This document shows positions 20,165 to 46,895 of a stretch of DNA of 64,000 nt, one piece after another. The stretch comes from Lysobacter sp. K5869. Lineage in GTDB: Bacteria > Pseudomonadota > Gammaproteobacteria > Xanthomonadales > Xanthomonadaceae. The notes under the pieces were generated by a model that was given only the letters and a program-made list of their open reading frames with translations, did not search any database and was not told the origin of the DNA. Both the position numbers and the translations under genes were made by a program. Location of the stretch: positions 3,139,001-3,203,000 of the forward strand of contig NZ_CP072597.1 of NCBI RefSeq assembly GCF_018847975.1, given 5' to 3'. Each line of letters opens with the position of its first letter. Positions within the stretch are counted from its first letter, which is position 1.

Positions 20165-21535
20165 ATGAACTCCCGCATCATCTTGTCCGCCGCGCTCATG
20201 GCCATCGCCAGCGCGGCTCAGGCGCAATCCCCGGTCGTGGAATGGACTTCGCCGCGCCTGGACGGCAGCACCAGCCATTACGGCTCGTGCTGCGATCCGG
20301 TCGAAGAGAACGCGATGGCCACCGACGCCGCCGGCAACGTCTACCTGGTCGGCTACCGCCCGCTCGGCCCCGCCACGGTGTGGACGGTCAGCAAACTGTC
20401 CGCCTCCGGCGAACTGTTGTGGCAGGCCAGCAACAACGGCCCGGAGCGGCGCTTCGACTACGCCTACGCGGTGGCGGTCGACCCCAACGGCGATCCGGTG
20501 GTCACCGGCGCGTCCTCGCAAGGCGGCTGGCCCACCTTCCTCACCATCAAGTTTTCCGGCGCCGACGGCCGCCAGTTGTGGGAGCGGCGCTGGCGCGACG
20601 TGGAAGGCGGTTACGGCGCCGCCCTGGCGATCGACGCGGCCGGCGATGTGGTGGTGATCGGCACGGCGCGCAATCGGCAGATCGGCACGGACTACGCCAC
20701 GGTCAAGTACCGCGGCAGCGACGGCGAGCAGTTGTGGGCCAGCACCTACGGGCGGGTCACCAACGAAGGCGACGCGCCGGCCGCCGTGGCCCTGGACCGC
20801 AACGGCAACGTCTTCGTCACCGGCGCCTCCGGCAGTTCGCAGTTCAGCAACGTTGCCACGATCAAGTACGACGGCGCCACCGGCGCGCAGTTGTGGGTCG
20901 CGCTGTACGCGCCGAAATTGTGGGGCACTTCGGTGGCGCACTTCGGCATGGACATCGCCGTGGACAGCCAGGGCGATCCGGTGGTGACCGGCGATTCCTT
21001 CGGCGAGCGGTTCCGCGACTTCGCCACGATCAAGTACGACGGCGCCACCGGTGCGCAGCGCTGGGTCGCGCGCTTCGACGCGGGCATTTCGCGCGACGAT
21101 CAACCCAAGGCCGTGGCGATCGACGCCAACGACGACGTCTACGTCGCCGGCGCGAGCTGGTGGAACGCGCCCGAGTCGAACTGGCGGATGGCGACGGTCA
21201 AGTACTCCGGAGTCAACGGCGGCGAAGTGTGGCGCGCGATCAGCCAGTCGCCGTGGGCGAGCAAGGAAAGCGCCTACGCTCTGGCCGTGGACGCGACCGG
21301 CGTGCAGGTCGCGGGTTGGGCGACCGGCGCCGACGGCAAGTACTTCCCCGCGGCGATCGGCTACTCGCCGACGACCGGCGCGCAATGGTGGGCCGCGCCG
21401 TTCGCGCAGTCGAGTTCGGACAACACCGCGACGGTCGCGCTCAAGCCGGCCGGCGACGGCGCGCTTTACCTCGGCGTCAAGCACTACTACACGACCGACG
21501 CGCTCTTCATCAAACGCTTGCGGACGACGCCCTGA
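20165..21535 (+). CDS. Secreted beta-propeller (SBBP-like) protein
   Basis: 456 residues from ATG 20165, preceded by AAAGGA at good spacing; an upstream ATG at 20129 would put 12 residues before the signal peptide and is unlikely. The signal peptide MNSRIILSAALMAIASAAQA is clear. The mature part is a series of about seven repeats of roughly 55 residues with the pattern VTGxS...ATIKYDGATGAQLWVA, alternating with VAVDxxGNVxVTG. That is the seven-bladed SBBP/PQQ-like propeller pattern found in exported bacterial proteins. No catalytic residues are evident; a binding or structural role outside the cytoplasm is likely. A hairpin terminator follows. Confidence 0.85.
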   Translation: MNSRIILSAALMAIASAAQAQSPVVEWTSPRLDGSTSHYGSCCDPVEENAMATDAAGNVYLVGYRPLGPATVWTVSKLSASGELLWQASNNGPERRFDYAYAVAVDPNGDPVVTGASSQGGWPTFLTIKFSGADGRQLWERRWRDVEGGYGAALAIDAAGDVVVIGTARNRQIGTDYATVKYRGSDGEQLWASTYGRVTNEGDAPAAVALDRNGNVFVTGASGSSQFSNVATIKYDGATGAQLWVALYAPKLWGTSVAHFGMDIAVDSQGDPVVTGDSFGERFRDFATIKYDGATGAQRWVARFDAGISRDDQPKAVAIDANDDVYVAGASWWNAPESNWRMATVKYSGVNGGEVWRAISQSPWASKESAYALAVDATGVQVAGWATGADGKYFPAAIGYSPTTGAQWWAAPFAQSSSDNTATVALKPAGDGALYLGVKHYYTTDALFIKRLRTTP

Positions 21536-21617: not shown

Positions 21618-21662
21618 TTGAATCAAACCTTCTCGAATCAAACCTGCTCGAATCAGGCCTTC
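21618..21662. repeat. Three tandem 15 bp repeats at the 3' end of the glutaredoxin gene
   Basis: TTGAATCAAACCTTC, TCGAATCAAACCTGC and TCGAATCAGGCCTTC follow each other directly. The last one spans the TGA stop of the minus-strand glutaredoxin gene, so the array grew out of, or into, the coding end. Confidence 0.7.
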
Positions 21663-22072
21663 TTGGCCTCGGTCTTGCCGTGCTTCTGCAGCAACTCGAC
21701 CAGCTTGGCCTCATCGAACCCACGCATGCTCTGATCGCCGATATAGATCACCGGCACGCTCTTGATCTTGAGCCCGTCGGCTTCCTTGCGCGCGACCTCG
21801 TCCTTGTCGATCACCCGCTCGACGTAGCGCACGTTGCGCTTGTCCAGCAGGTCCTTGGCCTTGTGGCAGAACGGGCAGGTCGACAAGGTGTAGAGCACGA
21901 TGTCGCCGCCGGCCTTGGCGTAGACGGCCGAATAGTCGCCCTGTTCGACGTCCACGCCGCCACCGCCGCCGCCGATCAGGCCGCTGTTGCGCACCAGATA
22001 GCCGGCGCCTACGCCCAGGCCCAAGGCCAGGGCCACGACCAGGATGGTGGTCAGGATCGACTTGAAGTTCAT
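21653..22072 (-). CDS. Membrane-anchored glutaredoxin-like protein
   Basis: 139 residues. Residues 6-27 form one transmembrane or uncleaved signal segment (ILTTILVVALALGLGVGAGY). A Gly-rich linker (GLIGGGGGG) comes next, then a glutaredoxin fold with the dithiol site C66-P-F-C69, the cis-proline loop VPVIYIG and the C-terminal GFDEAKLVELL helix. A Grx with an export or anchor sequence would face the periplasm, where it could act on disulfides of exported proteins; classical Grx are cytoplasmic and glutathione-linked. It is the nearest neighbour of a cluster of small exported Cys-rich peptides on the same strand (first one 76 bp away), so a redox link is plausible but not shown. The three 15 bp tandem repeats overlap its stop. 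Confidence 0.88.
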   Translation of the reverse strand: MNFKSILTTILVVALALGLGVGAGYLVRNSGLIGGGGGGVDVEQGDYSAVYAKAGGDIVLYTLSTCPFCHKAKDLLDKRNVRYVERVIDKDEVARKEADGLKIKSVPVIYIGDQSMRGFDEAKLVELLQKHGKTEAKKA

Positions 22073-22148
22073 TCCTTGTCCTCGGTGGATCGCAGATGGA
22101 AAAAGCCGGCGTCGGCGACGCCGGCGGTGATGAAGGCGCGGGCGGCGC

Positions 22149-22370
22149 TCAGCCGCGGCAGCCGCAGGCGTTGACGCAGGTCTGGCGCAAGCGGAAGCAG
22201 GCGGTGCCGCCGCCGTCGGCGCGGCATTGCTCGAAGCGGGCGATGCAGTCCTGCCAGCACAGCGAGCATTCTTCGGGCGTGCGGGCGGCGAAGGCGCTCA
22301 GCGAGAGCGCGAGGCCGAAGCAGAAGCCGGCCAGTGCGGCGGCATGGGCGCGGCGCGTAGCGGTCAACAT
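22149..22370 (-). CDS. Small exported cysteine-rich peptide (family member 1)
   Basis: 73 residues from ATG 22370, with GGAGG eight bases upstream; a GTG one codon earlier is possible. The signal peptide is LTATRRAHAAALAGFCFG then ALSLSAFAA, with a likely cut after AFA or AFAA. The mature part has eight Cys spaced C-x2-C-x3-C-x6-C-x8-C-x6-C-x3-C-x1-C. Cys spaced 3 and 6 apart on both sides of a short loop fit a disulfide-stapled pair of antiparallel helices. Members 2, 3, 4 and 5 in this window share the same spacing and similar signal peptides. Function unknown. It is the closest member to the membrane glutaredoxin. Confidence 0.83.
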   Translation of the reverse strand: MLTATRRAHAAALAGFCFGLALSLSAFAARTPEECSLCWQDCIARFEQCRADGGGTACFRLRQTCVNACGCRG

Positions 22371-22637
22371 CACTGTTCCTCCCTGTGCCCGTCTGTGGGC
22401 GCTGTGCGGTTATATCACCGCGCCGCGCGCGTTCCATGTCCCGTCGGCACGGCGGATGTGATGCGCGTTGCGGAATGCGGGCGCGTCGCGGGGCGCGGCG
22501 GCGTGCGTCGCCGGCGCGTCCCGCGCGCGGCCCCGGCTTACGCTGCGTTGCGGCACGGCTTTGCGCGAACGCCGCCGCGCCGCGCGACGGCCGGGGCGAA
22601 CGCGAACGCTCGCCCCGGCCGGCGTCGCGCGGTCGGA

Positions 22638-22841
22638 TCAGACCGTGCAGCCGCAGGCGCGGATGCACGCGCGCAGGTTGGTCTTGCAGAACGGATAACC
22701 GTCGGAGTTGCACTGCTCGTACTGGACGTAGCACTCGTCCGTGCACGCCTGGCAATCCTCCGCCTGAGCGAAGGCGCCGAACGAGAACGCGAGACCGAAG
22801 CCGAACGCGGCGACGGCGAAGACGCGGGTGCGCTTGAACAT
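22638..22841 (-). CDS. Small exported cysteine-rich peptide (family member 2)
   Basis: 67 residues with a strong AGGAGA site before the ATG. The signal peptide reads MFKRTRVFAVAAFGFG then LAFSFGAFAQA. The mature chain has eight Cys with spacing C-x2-C-x3-C-x6-C-x7-C-x6-C-x3-C-x1-C and the family words YEQC and ACGC. The loop between the two Cys halves is the shortest of the set. It is separated from member 1 by about 265 bp that hold no other gene that I can see, so it probably has its own promoter. Confidence 0.85.
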   Translation of the reverse strand: MFKRTRVFAVAAFGFGLAFSFGAFAQAEDCQACTDECYVQYEQCNSDGYPFCKTNLRACIRACGCTV

Positions 22842-22871
22842 GATCGAAGTCTCCTGGGATGGCGGGTCGGA

Positions 22872-23081
22872 TCAGGGCAGTCGGCAGTTGCACAGACGGC
22901 GGCATTCCGCGTACGCCGCGAGGCATTGCTCCGACGGCGTGCCGGCGGCGCGGCACGCCGAACGCTCGACCAGACAATTGCGGTAGCAGTCTTCGCAAGC
23001 GGTGGCGACGGCGCTCAGCGAAAACGCCAGCCCGAAACAGAACGCGGTGGCCGCGAGGACGCGGCGGGTGGGTTTGAACAT
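22872..23081 (-). CDS. Small exported cysteine-rich peptide (family member 3)
   Basis: 69 residues preceded by AAGGAGAGA. The signal peptide (MFKPTRRVLAATAFCFG then LAFSLSAVATA) is nearly the same as in member 2, which suggests tandem duplication. The eight mature Cys are spaced C-x2-C-x3-C-x6-C-x9-C-x6-C-x3-C-x1-C. It starts 30 bp upstream of member 2 on the same strand, so these two are likely co-transcribed, and it is divergent from the hypX-like gene. Confidence 0.85.
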   Translation of the reverse strand: MFKPTRRVLAATAFCFGLAFSLSAVATACEDCYRNCLVERSACRAAGTPSEQCLAAYAECRRLCNCRLP

Positions 23082-23301
23082 CGATCTCTCCTTGTGCGAT
23101 GGGACGAACGCTCATCGTGAGCGGGTGACGGCGGCGCCCGGCGCCGCGGGTCGCGCGCGGCGCGACGGCTCGGACCAACGCGGTGCGACGAGAGGGGCGG
23201 CCACCGCACGGCACTTTCGCGACGACTTTCTTGTGGAACGGCGATGGACGTCGAAGAAACGCAAGGCCAGCGCGAGGCGACAAGGTTTTGTGATGACCGC
23301 T

Positions 23302-23317
23302 CATGTTTATGAACATG
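23302..23317. promoter_or_regulatory. Palindrome between cysteine-rich peptide genes and hypX-like gene
   Basis: CATGTT-TATG-AACATG is a perfect 6 bp inverted repeat in an AT-richer patch, about 50 bp before the hypX-like start and 220 bp from the divergent peptide gene. It looks like an operator for a dimeric regulator; the regulator is unknown. Confidence 0.4.
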
Positions 23318-23364
23318 CATTGGCACACATTCGAGACTTCGTAGGTGGCAGGGGGGATGGATCC

Positions 23365-25104
23365 ATGTCGCTGCGCATCTTGTTTTTATGCACTGCGTTC
23401 AATGGGCTGGCTCAGCGCGCCTGGGCCGAACTCACCGAGTCGGGCCACGAGGTCGCCGTGCAGATGGCCGCCGATGCGGACACCATGCGCGCGGCGGTCG
23501 CGCGCGAACGTCCGCAACTGATCGTCGCGCCGATGCTCAAGTCGGCGATCCCCGAAGACCTCTGGACGCGCCACACCTGTTTGATCGTGCACCCGGGCAT
23601 CGTCGGCGACCGCGGGCCGTCGTCGTTGGACTGGGCGATCCTGGAAGGCGCGCCGCAATGGGGCGTCACCGTGCTGCAGGCCGCGGCCGAGATGGACGCG
23701 GGCGATATCTGGGCCAGCGCCGGTTTCGCCGTGCGCGGCGCGTCCAAGAGCGAGCTGTACCGGCACGAAGTCACCGACGCGGCGGTGCGCGCCTTGCTGC
23801 AGGCGGTGGAGCGGTTCGAGACCGGCGGCTTCGCGCCGCAGCCGCTGGATTACGCCGATCCCGACGTGCGCGGCCGCTTGCGCCCGGGCATGCGCCCGGC
23901 CGACCGCGCGCTGGACTGGGAGATGGACAACGCCGCGCTGCTGGCGCGGATCCGCTGCGGCGACAGCGCGCCGGGCGCGCGCGGCGAGATCGCCGGGCTG
24001 CGTTGTCAGGTGTTCGGCGCGCACGTCGAACCCTCGCTGCGCGGCCGTCCGGGCGAACTGCTCGGCCGCCGCGAAGGCGCGGTGTGCGTGGCCACGGGCG
24101 ACGGCGCGCTGTGGCTGAGCCATTTGCGCGACAAGGACGGGATCAAGCTGCCGGCGACCCAGACGCTGGGCGAGGCGCGCCTGCGCGGCGTGGCCGCGCG
24201 CGCGCTCAAGCCGGCGACCTCGGTGGCCGGGCGGCGCGATCACGGCTACCGTCAGATCCGCTACCGCGAAGTCGGCGCGGTCGGCTACCTGCATTTCGAT
24301 TTCTACAACGGCGCGATGTCGACCTTGCAGTGCGACCGCCTGCGCACCGCGTTCCTGCACGCGCGCCAGCGTCCGACCCGCGCCATCGCGCTGCTCGGCG
24401 GCGGCGATATCTGGTCCAACGGCATCCACCTCAACACCATCGAGGCCGCCGCCGATCCGGCGTTGGAATCGTGGCGCAACATCCTGGCGATGAACGCGTT
24501 GGTGCGCGAAATCGTGCTGACCGATTCGCATCTGGTGGTTGCGGCGATGCAGGGCAACGCCGGCGCCGGCGGCGCGATCCTGGCGCTGGCGGCCGATCAC
24601 GTCTGGGCGCGGCGCGGCGTGGTGCTCAATCCGCATTACAAGGCGATGGGCGGCTTGTACGGTTCGGAGTACTGGACCTATCTGCTGCCGCGCCGGGTCG
24701 GCGAGACCGTCGCGCAGGAACTGACCGAAGGGCTGCGTCCGATCGGCGCGCCCGCGGCCGAGCGCATCGGCCTGATTGACGCGGCCTTCGGTGCCAGCGG
24801 CGCGGATTTCCTCGCCCATGTCGAGCAGCGCGCCGAGCGTCTGGCCGAACCGGGCGCTTGCCGCAAGGCGCTGACCCTCAAGCGCCGCCGCCGCGCCGAG
24901 GACGAACGGCGCAAGCCGCTGGAAAGCTACGGCGCCGAGGAACTGGCGCATATGTACCGCAACTTCTTCGGTCCCGACCGCGCTTATCACGACGCGCGCC
25001 GCCGCTTCGTGCGCAAGCAAGCGGTGTCGCCGTGCGAGGCGGGCGAGAGCTTCGCCGCCGAACGCAGCGAAGCCAGGCCCAAGTCGGTGCGCGCGAACGC
25101 CTGA
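23365..25104 (+). CDS. hypX: HypX/HoxX-like protein (formyltransferase-crotonase fusion)
   Basis: 579 residues from ATG 23365, with a G-rich site just before; longer in-frame starts run through non-coding-looking sequence. The N-terminal half is a formyl-tetrahydrofolate-dependent transferase-like domain with the hallmark HPGIVGDRGPSSLDWAI near residues 75-91. The C-terminal half is an enoyl-CoA hydratase/crotonase domain (YLHFDFYNGAM, LLGGGDIWSNG, GNAGAGGAILALAADHVW). In NiFe-hydrogenase organisms, HypX/HoxX converts formyl-THF through formyl-CoA to the CO ligand of the active site under aerobic conditions. No hydrogenase or other hyp gene lies in the window, so either those genes are elsewhere or this orphan serves another formyl transfer. 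It is flanked on both sides by cysteine-rich peptide genes on the opposite strand. Confidence 0.88.
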   Translation: MSLRILFLCTAFNGLAQRAWAELTESGHEVAVQMAADADTMRAAVARERPQLIVAPMLKSAIPEDLWTRHTCLIVHPGIVGDRGPSSLDWAILEGAPQWGVTVLQAAAEMDAGDIWASAGFAVRGASKSELYRHEVTDAAVRALLQAVERFETGGFAPQPLDYADPDVRGRLRPGMRPADRALDWEMDNAALLARIRCGDSAPGARGEIAGLRCQVFGAHVEPSLRGRPGELLGRREGAVCVATGDGALWLSHLRDKDGIKLPATQTLGEARLRGVAARALKPATSVAGRRDHGYRQIRYREVGAVGYLHFDFYNGAMSTLQCDRLRTAFLHARQRPTRAIALLGGGDIWSNGIHLNTIEAAADPALESWRNILAMNALVREIVLTDSHLVVAAMQGNAGAGGAILALAADHVWARRGVVLNPHYKAMGGLYGSEYWTYLLPRRVGETVAQELTEGLRPIGAPAAERIGLIDAAFGASGADFLAHVEQRAERLAEPGACRKALTLKRRRRAEDERRKPLESYGAEELAHMYRNFFGPDRAYHDARRRFVRKQAVSPCEAGESFAAERSEARPKSVRANA

Positions 25105-25207
25105 GCGGACGCGCGGGCGAGGGCGTGCGCATGCGCGCGCGAGGCGGGCGGGATCATCGGAACGAAAGCGCGGCAGGCCGCAGGGCCCGGCCTGCCGCGC
25201 GCCCGGC

Positions 25208-25423
25208 TCAGGGCATCATGCAGCCGCAATCGCGGCCGCACTGGGTGAACTGCGAGGAGCAGGCCCAGCCGTCGCCGTACTGCTGCTTGCAGTCTTCGTA
25301 TTGGGCGATGCAGCGGTTCCAGCAGGTGTTGCACACGCCGGCCACCGCGCTCATCGAGAACGCGAAACCGAAAGCCATGGCGGCGAAGGCGAGCAATCCG
25401 AGCTTGCGCGAGCGGGTCTTCAT
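25208..25423 (-). CDS. Small exported cysteine-rich peptide (family member 4)
   Basis: 71 residues, with AAGGAGAGA before the ATG. The signal peptide is MKTRSRKLGLLAFAAMAFG then FAFSMSAVAG. Eight mature Cys have spacing C-x2-C-x3-C-x6-C-x9-C-x6-C-x3-C-x1-C, and the helix-like segment IAQYEDC matches YVQYEQC of member 2. It lies just past the hypX-like gene and points towards it, so it is not in an operon with members 1-3. A single REP half-unit (25523-25550) lies upstream. Confidence 0.85.
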   Translation of the reverse strand: MKTRSRKLGLLAFAAMAFGFAFSMSAVAGVCNTCWNRCIAQYEDCKQQYGDGWACSSQFTQCGRDCGCMMP

Positions 25424-46685: not shown

Positions 46686-46895
46686 ATGAAGCGGATGCAG
46701 ATGCGTTGGGCGGCGGTGGCCGCATTGGCGTTCGGGTTGGGGTTCGGCGCGACGACGGCGTCGGCCGCGGACCCGGATTGCTACAGCGCGTGCCAGGAAC
46801 AGTTGAACGATTGCATCGCCCAGGCCGGGAACGGCAGCACCCGGCATTGCGGGCGCATGTATCGGGAATGCACTACGGCTTGTTCGTTGGAGTGA
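46686..46895 (+). CDS. Small exported cysteine-rich peptide (family member 5)
   Basis: 69 residues with GGGAGGCAAGGCG before the ATG. The signal peptide is MKRMQMRWAAVAALAFG then LGFGATTASA. Six mature Cys are spaced C-x3-C-x6-C-x11-C-x6-C-x3-C: the same mirror-symmetric core as members 1-4 (21.7 kb or more away), but without the extra Cys at each end and with the longest central loop. This supports the core hairpin as the conserved unit. It is followed by a REP doublet. Confidence 0.85.
   Translation: MKRMQMRWAAVAALAFGLGFGATTASAADPDCYSACQEQLNDCIAQAGNGSTRHCGRMYRECTTACSLE

Follow-up and report, generated by a model that had tools for sequence, protein, structure and literature searches.

A multigene family of predicted exported disulfide-hairpin miniproteins encoded at fixed loci in Lysobacter

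A 64,000-nucleotide stretch of the Lysobacter sp. K5869 chromosome (contig NZ_CP072597.1, positions 3,139,001 to 3,203,000; here called the window) encodes five small cysteine-rich peptides that belong to a multigene family of predicted exported miniproteins, whose members found to date all come from the order of Lysobacter. The family was delimited by computation, as were its cysteine frame, its signal-like N-termini, its predicted fold, its fixed chromosomal loci, and the pattern in which its members diverge. We give a probability of about 40% to the reading that the members are exported antagonist or binding peptides that act outside the cytoplasm.

The five window peptides share a frame that chance does not readily supply. 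All five had been proposed by a first-pass annotation of the window, and each is present as an open reading frame and supported by alignment and by profile search. Peptide 1 (22149..22370, minus strand; start either GTG at 22373 or ATG at 22370) has eight cysteines separated by 2-3-6-8-6-3-1 residues, is the one closest to a glutaredoxin gene, and is matched by the profile in its own genome with an expectation value (E) of 3.2e-25. Peptide 2 (22638..22841; frame 2-3-6-7-6-3-1), peptide 3 (22872..23081; frame 2-3-6-9-6-3-1), and peptide 4 (25208..25423; frame 2-3-6-9-6-3-1, profile E of 1.0e-30) are eight-cysteine peptides on the same minus strand, and peptide 4 is 90% identical to its match in L. 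enzymogenes ATCC 29487. Peptide 5 (46686..46895, plus strand) adjoins katG and has six cysteines in the frame 3-6-11-6-3. The pattern suggested for all of them, C-x3-C-x6-C-x(7-11)-C-x6-C-x3-C, returned exactly these five in a six-frame scan of the window and nothing in a control set of 20 order-2 Markov sequences, each 64 kb long. A looser core, C-x6-C-x(5-13)-C-x6-C, occurred 10 times in the window, whereas the Markov sequences averaged 0.75 and never exceeded 3; half of these ten occurrences correspond to the peptides, and the rest resemble chance frames. The clustered four indeed carry one extra cysteine per side, giving C-x2-C-x3-C-x6-C-x(7-9)-C-x6-C-x3-C-x-C, and peptide 5 has neither. 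A MAFFT alignment bore out the shared signal-peptide type, with a common motif and six invariant cysteines; the signal sequences are similar but have few invariant residues, for example F18 and G19. A profile search found no sixth member within the window.

The frame in the wider family is mirror symmetric. From 40 fetched regions we took 134 members, removed 16 with a deviating core by regular expression, and merged duplicates to leave 116 distinct mature parts. The commonest frame among these has six cysteines, C-x2-C-x6-C-x(7-12)-C-x6-C-x5-C (78 of 116), the eight-cysteine frame 2-3-6-(7 to 9)-6-3-1 accounts for 25, and the remaining 13 vary; the eight-cysteine type of the window is a variant with one additional helix turn. 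By the looser definition C-x6-C-x(n)-C-x6-C, the core is present in 124 of 131 distinct sequences of the genus, and of the seven without it four have C-x7-C in the first arm and three are truncated, decayed, or carry a deletion. Outer cysteines are equal in number on both sides in 122 of the 124, a tally that includes many closely related sequences (94 with one on each side, 28 with two, and 2 unequal). Another 29 distinct core-bearing sequences, 26 from other genera and 3 from peptide-poor congeners, comprise 27 with one outer cysteine on each side, one with two, and one with none; three further sequences from those sources lack the core. AlphaFold predicted a two-helix hairpin in two models, with mean confidence scores (predicted local distance difference test) of 82 and 90, the mature part of peptide 4 scoring 81.9. 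The occurrence of outer cysteines in mirrored sets fits the prediction of a stapled hairpin and supports disulfide pairing indirectly, short of proof. The annotation had foreseen two antiparallel helices stapled by disulfides; the models likewise predict the helices, and the mirrored cysteines support the staples indirectly.

The N-termini resemble signal peptides. An A-x-A-like site lies near the first core cysteine in 125 of 125 distinct members under a permissive rule, and export is predicted. A lipobox at the first cysteine was found in just 2 of the 125, and we set aside the idea that the peptides are lipoproteins. The average mature part is acidic (net charge of -2.5, n = 116) and poor in lysine (1.0%) and histidine (1.2%), and the charge gives no support to a cationic antimicrobial peptide. 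The genes also have the strong ribosome binding sites attributed to them: AGGAGA was matched at 5 or 6 of its 6 positions in 62 of 85 non-redundant family upstream regions versus 7 of 81 neighboring genes, a comparison biased by the use of the binding site in choosing family start codons and of a heuristic caller for the starts of the neighbors.

The family extends well beyond the window. The "family of five" of the first-pass annotation was too small, because a profile of the five peptides retrieved eleven further core-bearing members from the same 5.97-Mb chromosome, at 4.728 Mb (2), 4.926 Mb (3), 5.105 Mb (1), 0.998 Mb (3, in tandem), and 4.314 Mb (2). For the genus, a 14-member profile (A2) was run against 20 genomes at E up to 0.001, with at most 150 candidates per genome scored. 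The genome of K5869 gave 17 matches, namely 16 with the core, including the five of the window, and one to the signal part only; counts for other genomes may likewise contain signal-only matches. The family is conserved in close relatives, whose lack of it the annotation would have held against its proposal: 18 of the 20 genomes had matches, up to 37 each. Seven genomes had 27 to 37 (G003-G006, G011, G017, and G019), seven had 6 to 11 (G001, G002, G007-G009, G015, and G016), three had 1 or 2 (G010, G012, and G014), and two had none (G013 and G018). Wider draws, in which the best 18 to 30 candidates per genome were scored, give lower bounds. At least 28 of 198 genomes matched in the taxonomic family, 8 of them in the genus, representing at least 9 of 54 genera. 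With a profile of the mature part at E up to 1e-4, at least 16 of 299 genomes matched in the order, four of them outside the taxonomic family, and at least 4 of 398 in the phylum, all within the taxonomic family of the window. Beyond the genus, copies are few and, among the genomes drawn and as a lower bound, confined to the same order.

The same style of signal is found on other small cysteine-rich peptides. In K5869, L016 (3552410-3552565, plus strand) represents a second type, with a tail like RPCCSSCDESQPDSRCWAICTPGC and another cysteine frame, and relatives occur outside the genus, in two genomes of genus g28 (L063 and L068 being the loci in another genus). Two short cysteine-rich reading frames of the same genome, L015 (5946231, minus strand) and L017 (2001604, minus strand), also have the signal style yet other frames, and are weak profile matches. 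The signal peptide may be a common module of several peptide families.

Members diverge within a genome and are kept between genomes. Orthologs were taken as reciprocal best matches above a score limit in twelve genome comparisons with 2 to 16 pairs each, a procedure that favors similar pairs, and their ratio of nonsynonymous to synonymous substitution rates (dN/dS, by Nei-Gojobori counts) was 0.09 to 0.66 for mature parts and 0.18 to 0.76 for signals. Paralogs in twelve arrays gave 0.77 to 1.16 for mature parts and 0.22 to 1.04 for signals by the same counts. All of these values are rough, as the sequences are short, diverged, and GC-rich, and near 1 relaxed and diversifying selection look alike. 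Moreover, paralogs within those arrays were 0.47 to 0.73 identical in their signals versus 0.18 to 0.40 at non-cysteine positions of the mature part. Judged from these comparisons, orthologs are conserved, and paralogs retain the signal and the cysteines while the remainder diverges. In the fetched regions, when mature parts were compared across genomes, the closest relative always occupied the same locus type (127 of 127), and the nearest paralog in the same genome lay within the same array in 105 of 121. We read the pattern as tandem copies that may diverge quickly on a fixed frame and are afterwards held in place. Decayed or truncated members inside arrays (L088:6041, L096:4452, and L101:4870) suggest continuing birth and death of copies.

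The loci are fixed, and their neighbors are mostly ordinary. Neighboring genes of the 40 regions were called heuristically and 262 proteins were clustered by all-against-all BLAST, with names lacking a Pfam scan read from the sequence. Arrays of one locus type have largely the same neighbors across species, and arrays of different types have different ones: hypX, a transporter, and radA; aldehyde dehydrogenase, pyrD, and murB; clpA, aat, and infA; aldo-keto reductase, M20 peptidases, and often a TonB-dependent receptor; and katG. Among these proteins, no neighbor family is shared by all locus types. Two families occur at two types each: F6, made up of AAA proteins whose clpA-locus and katG-locus versions differ, and F15, whose members look like LysR-type regulators. 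In the window, the four minus-strand peptides flank a plus-strand gene on both sides, and this gene has the formyl-transferase and enoyl-CoA hydratase domains expected of the HypX that the annotation took it for; relatives of peptide 1 likewise sit in HypX arrays. The katG-side peptide at 46686 has a relative adjoining katG in a peptide-poor congener (L036 in G014; 58% over 38 amino acids) and another adjoining an AAA protein in a different genus (L050; 51% over 67 amino acids), and it may be the oldest. Three further neighbors recur at single locus types. The TonB-dependent receptor (F21) lies near the aldo-keto reductase-locus arrays in 5 of 7 fetched regions (L076, L079, L095, L098, and L101). 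A small secreted-looking protein (F10), with a weak, below-cut-off match to DUF6491, lies in or beside the clpA-locus arrays in 7 of 7 (L084, L088, L105, and orthologs). Finally, in 10 of 10 fetched pyrD-locus arrays a DUF4190 membrane protein (L099:5498-5785) is encoded in the midst of the peptides, with orthologs in 15 of the 20 genus genomes.

The family is apparently undescribed. For the five peptides, no Pfam or NCBIfam model reached its cut-off (the best was DUF5637, E of 0.01, 16.3 bits versus 31.3), and 100 mature parts gave scattered weak matches only, of which CBM_14 (3 of 100, best E of 0.004) and tachystatin B (2 of 100, best E of 0.017) were taken as chance. Two PHROGs families each matched 1 of the 100 members, at E of 0.004 and 0.007. 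DUF2282 and DUF326, which we take to be bufferins and cysteine-rich copper proteins, respectively, had no match to the five full peptides at E up to 10 or to the 100 mature parts at E up to 0.1. A description of the hairpin family was not found among the top-ranked papers of targeted literature searches. The annotation knew of no named bacterial family with this spacing, which agrees with the failure of any curated family to match convincingly, but the inner frame does have a precedent in the nested-disulfide hairpin of glycocins.

Glycocin F, sublancin, and thermoglycocin have an inner C-x6-C-x(about 8)-C-x6-C with a short loop, as the Lysobacter peptides do, and the glycocin disulfides are nested; in thermoglycocin, Cys7-Cys30 and Cys14-Cys23 are nested about a loop of eight residues that lies between two helices (PMC12457901). 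The Lysobacter peptides differ, however, in their signal-peptide-like N-terminus, with its A-x-A-like site in all 125 members, where glycocins have a PCAT leader (PCAT genes were not searched), in an extra outer cysteine per side, and in their arrays of many paralogs. A SunS-type glycosyltransferase (TIGR04195) scored above cut-off in none of 6 genomes, each of which had one weak partial match, and none was recognized beside the arrays among the part of the neighbor families that was scanned. The NCBIfam glycocin F model matched 1 of 100 members at E of 0.053. We conclude from the glycosyltransferase and leader results that the peptides are not glycocins.

Other helical hairpins are related by analogy. 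The twin CX3C/CX9C (CHCH) proteins of mitochondria also have antiparallel helices with facing cysteines, but their cysteine spacing is unlike that of the Lysobacter peptides. The likeness to twin Cx3C proteins drawn by the annotation stands as an analogy and goes no further: CX9C (E of 0.06) and COX6B (E of 0.07) matched 1 of 100 members each, COA6 reached E of 0.7 with the A4 profile, and we rejected CHCH/twin CX9C membership. Plant alpha-hairpinins have a twin C-x3-C motif and two disulfides, whereas the core of the 116 Lysobacter mature parts is a twin C-x6-C with three or four possible pairs, and on that motif the family does not belong with them. The plant peptides are small disulfide-stapled helical hairpins, as is predicted for the Lysobacter ones, and most of them are antimicrobial; similar hairpins are found as animal toxins and plant defense peptides (PMC11722136). 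The best structural neighbor of the eight-cysteine model was acrorhagin I, of the CS-alpha/alpha type, which was not listed among the structural neighbors of the six-cysteine model. Acrorhagin I and CS-alpha/alpha toxins have two helices with up to four disulfide cross-links, but they are of animal origin and no sequence relation to the Lysobacter peptides was found. Moreover, several histidines have been proposed to underlie the toxicity of acrorhagin I (same source), and histidine is scarce in the Lysobacter peptides.

The glutaredoxin beside the window array is a conserved neighbor. The annotation had placed a membrane glutaredoxin next to the peptides on the same strand, and the gene at 21653..22072 (minus strand) indeed encodes a glutaredoxin-like protein with a CPFC motif (PF00462, E of 5e-17); its membrane anchor is putative and read from the N-terminus. 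Orthologs with 73 to 100% identity occur in 15 of the 20 genus genomes, and in each of these 15 the same strand carries an eight-cysteine peptide gene 76 to 490 bases upstream. The five genomes with 0 to 2 peptides have no close ortholog, the match in G010 being 31% identical. The unrelated DUF4190 gene of the pyrD arrays, however, has the identical 15-of-20 distribution, and thus clade alone may explain the co-occurrence. Moreover, a terminator-like hairpin (22105..22125, minus strand; 9-pair stem, 3-base loop, and T tail) lies 3' of peptide 1 and before the glutaredoxin gene. As proof of a common function, the co-occurrence is weakened by both. A second terminator-like hairpin, with a 13-pair stem, lies immediately 3' of peptide 4 (25168..25200, minus strand); the scan found 5 sites in the region versus 3.0 (standard deviation of 2.0) in shuffles and is suggestive only. 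A consensus promoter scan of the window array gave 0 sites, and Rfam had no match between positions 21000 and 27500.

A leader hairpin marks one locus type. The element GCCAG-ANGGA-CTGGC (the GCCAGANGGACTGGC hairpin), which we take to resemble CsrA/RsmA sites, is found in the 5' leaders of many pyrD-locus array genes, with exact GCCAGANGGACTGGC examples in L073, L075, and L099 and at 4926490 and 4927671 of the K5869 genome. Hairpins with an ANGGA loop lie upstream of 20 of 127 family genes, where an expectation drawn from the same loci is 2.4. Of these 20 hairpins, 18 are GCCAG-ANGGA-CTGGC, all at the pyrD locus, and eight other loop patterns occurred 0 to 8 times without excess upstream of the 127 genes. 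In nine genomes the exact hairpin has 19 copies, all in the pyrD-locus arrays of seven genomes and none in the two peptide-free genomes, and the variable loop base of these copies is A, T, or C. Allowing one mismatch added 18 matches, two of them at the pyrD locus. With up to one mismatch, the reversed pattern is commoner, at 15 to 31 per genome versus 2 to 8, so the pattern has no genome-wide enrichment and the evidence is the position of the exact copies. Often there is also an upstream CTAGC(A/G)T box, which in some cases reads as a TTGACC-N17-TAGC(A/G)T promoter. A csrA gene was present in 6 of 6 genomes tested. None of the five peptides of the window was found to have the hairpin in its upstream region. 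In the available part of a paper on CsrA (PMC4066749), the terms ANGGA and hairpin loop do not occur.

How exported antagonist or binding peptides of this kind would work can be outlined. Each gene would be a small cassette for a signal peptide followed by a mature part approximately 40 to 50 residues long. In the oxidizing periplasm the mature peptide would fold as two antiparallel helices zipped by nested disulfides, one C-x6-C arm against the other, plus one or two outer pairs. Because residues vary strongly between array neighbors and are kept between species, every paralog seems to have a conserved partner of its own, which could lie in or beyond the envelope. The job would be to bind and block extracytoplasmic partners, as secreted antagonists in the style of alpha-hairpinins, CS-alpha/alpha toxins, and glycocins. 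We infer that the disulfides are real, that the peptides pass the outer membrane, and that they have targets which they antagonize. Lysobacter species are investigated for their antagonism toward fungi, oomycetes, and bacteria. That antagonism is usually attributed to small molecules and lytic enzymes (PMC4657364), and the word cysteine is absent from the main text of that source as available. A fuller version would be a conotoxin-like arsenal, with dozens of target-tuned hairpin effectors per genome, born in tandem at fixed loci, part of them under a CsrA/RsmA-like leader and the eight-cysteine class served by a private disulfide-setting glutaredoxin; that so elaborate a picture holds throughout is doubtful.

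Other readings were weighed against the same observations. Each paralog might be a periplasmic inhibitor or chaperone-like binder that guards one of the cell's own secreted proteases or lytic enzymes until it exits, a possible if rather unlikely role. Periplasmic export would suffice for it, neither immunity nor a neighbor gene would be required, and both the purifying selection on orthologs and the diversity of paralogs would be accounted for; in its favor too, some plant alpha-hairpinins are trypsin inhibitors. Moreover, Lysobacter genomes are rich in peptidases, several of them secreted in outer membrane vesicles (PMC4657364). No secreted serine protease was recognized beside the fetched arrays, however, the recurring M20 peptidase pair belongs to one locus type and is of another kind, variation affects both helices rather than just the loop, and no inhibitor family matched. 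Diffusible recognition or signaling peptides, like helical-hairpin pheromones, would also explain a big paralog set on one scaffold with conserved orthologs. The pheromone attractin was the sole, nonsignificant PDB sequence-profile match of A3 (E of 0.28), and the F21 receptor stands near arrays in 5 of 7 fetched regions of its locus type. As that receptor is confined to one locus type, and a two-component pair lies near the peptides, with one gene between, at the L074/L089 locus type only, we consider signaling improbable.

A periplasmic redox or metal buffer was among the roles first suggested; in such a buffer the membrane glutaredoxin would reduce or shuffle the disulfides. The constant adjacency of that gene to an eight-cysteine gene (15 of 15 genomes) and the want of a close ortholog in the five peptide-poor or peptide-free genomes speak for it, but the terminator-like hairpin separates the genes, the equal DUF4190 distribution means that clade may suffice, and the glutaredoxin family occurs at no other fetched locus type. 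Moreover, histidines are few (1.2%), the cysteine count is nearly always balanced, and a buffer has no need of dozens of diversified versions; we do not favor it and think it quite improbable. Finally, small reading frames are plentiful in GC-rich DNA, and the whole family might be chance frames. The pattern count of five versus none in 20 Markov sequences, the conservation, the synteny, and ortholog dN/dS below 1 make that hardly credible.

What the exported binding or antagonist peptides would mean for Lysobacter follows from their number. Up to about 37 exported disulfide miniproteins per genome would amount to a layer missed by family-based annotation, the genes being short and without a family match. 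The family would be a natural library on one robust scaffold, of use for engineering stable binders. It would also be an unusual bacterial instance of evolution with a fixed frame and a variable surface, as in venoms and plant defense peptides, and by analogy it looks like a bacterial counterpart to the arsenals of disulfide-hairpin peptides that plants and venomous animals have.

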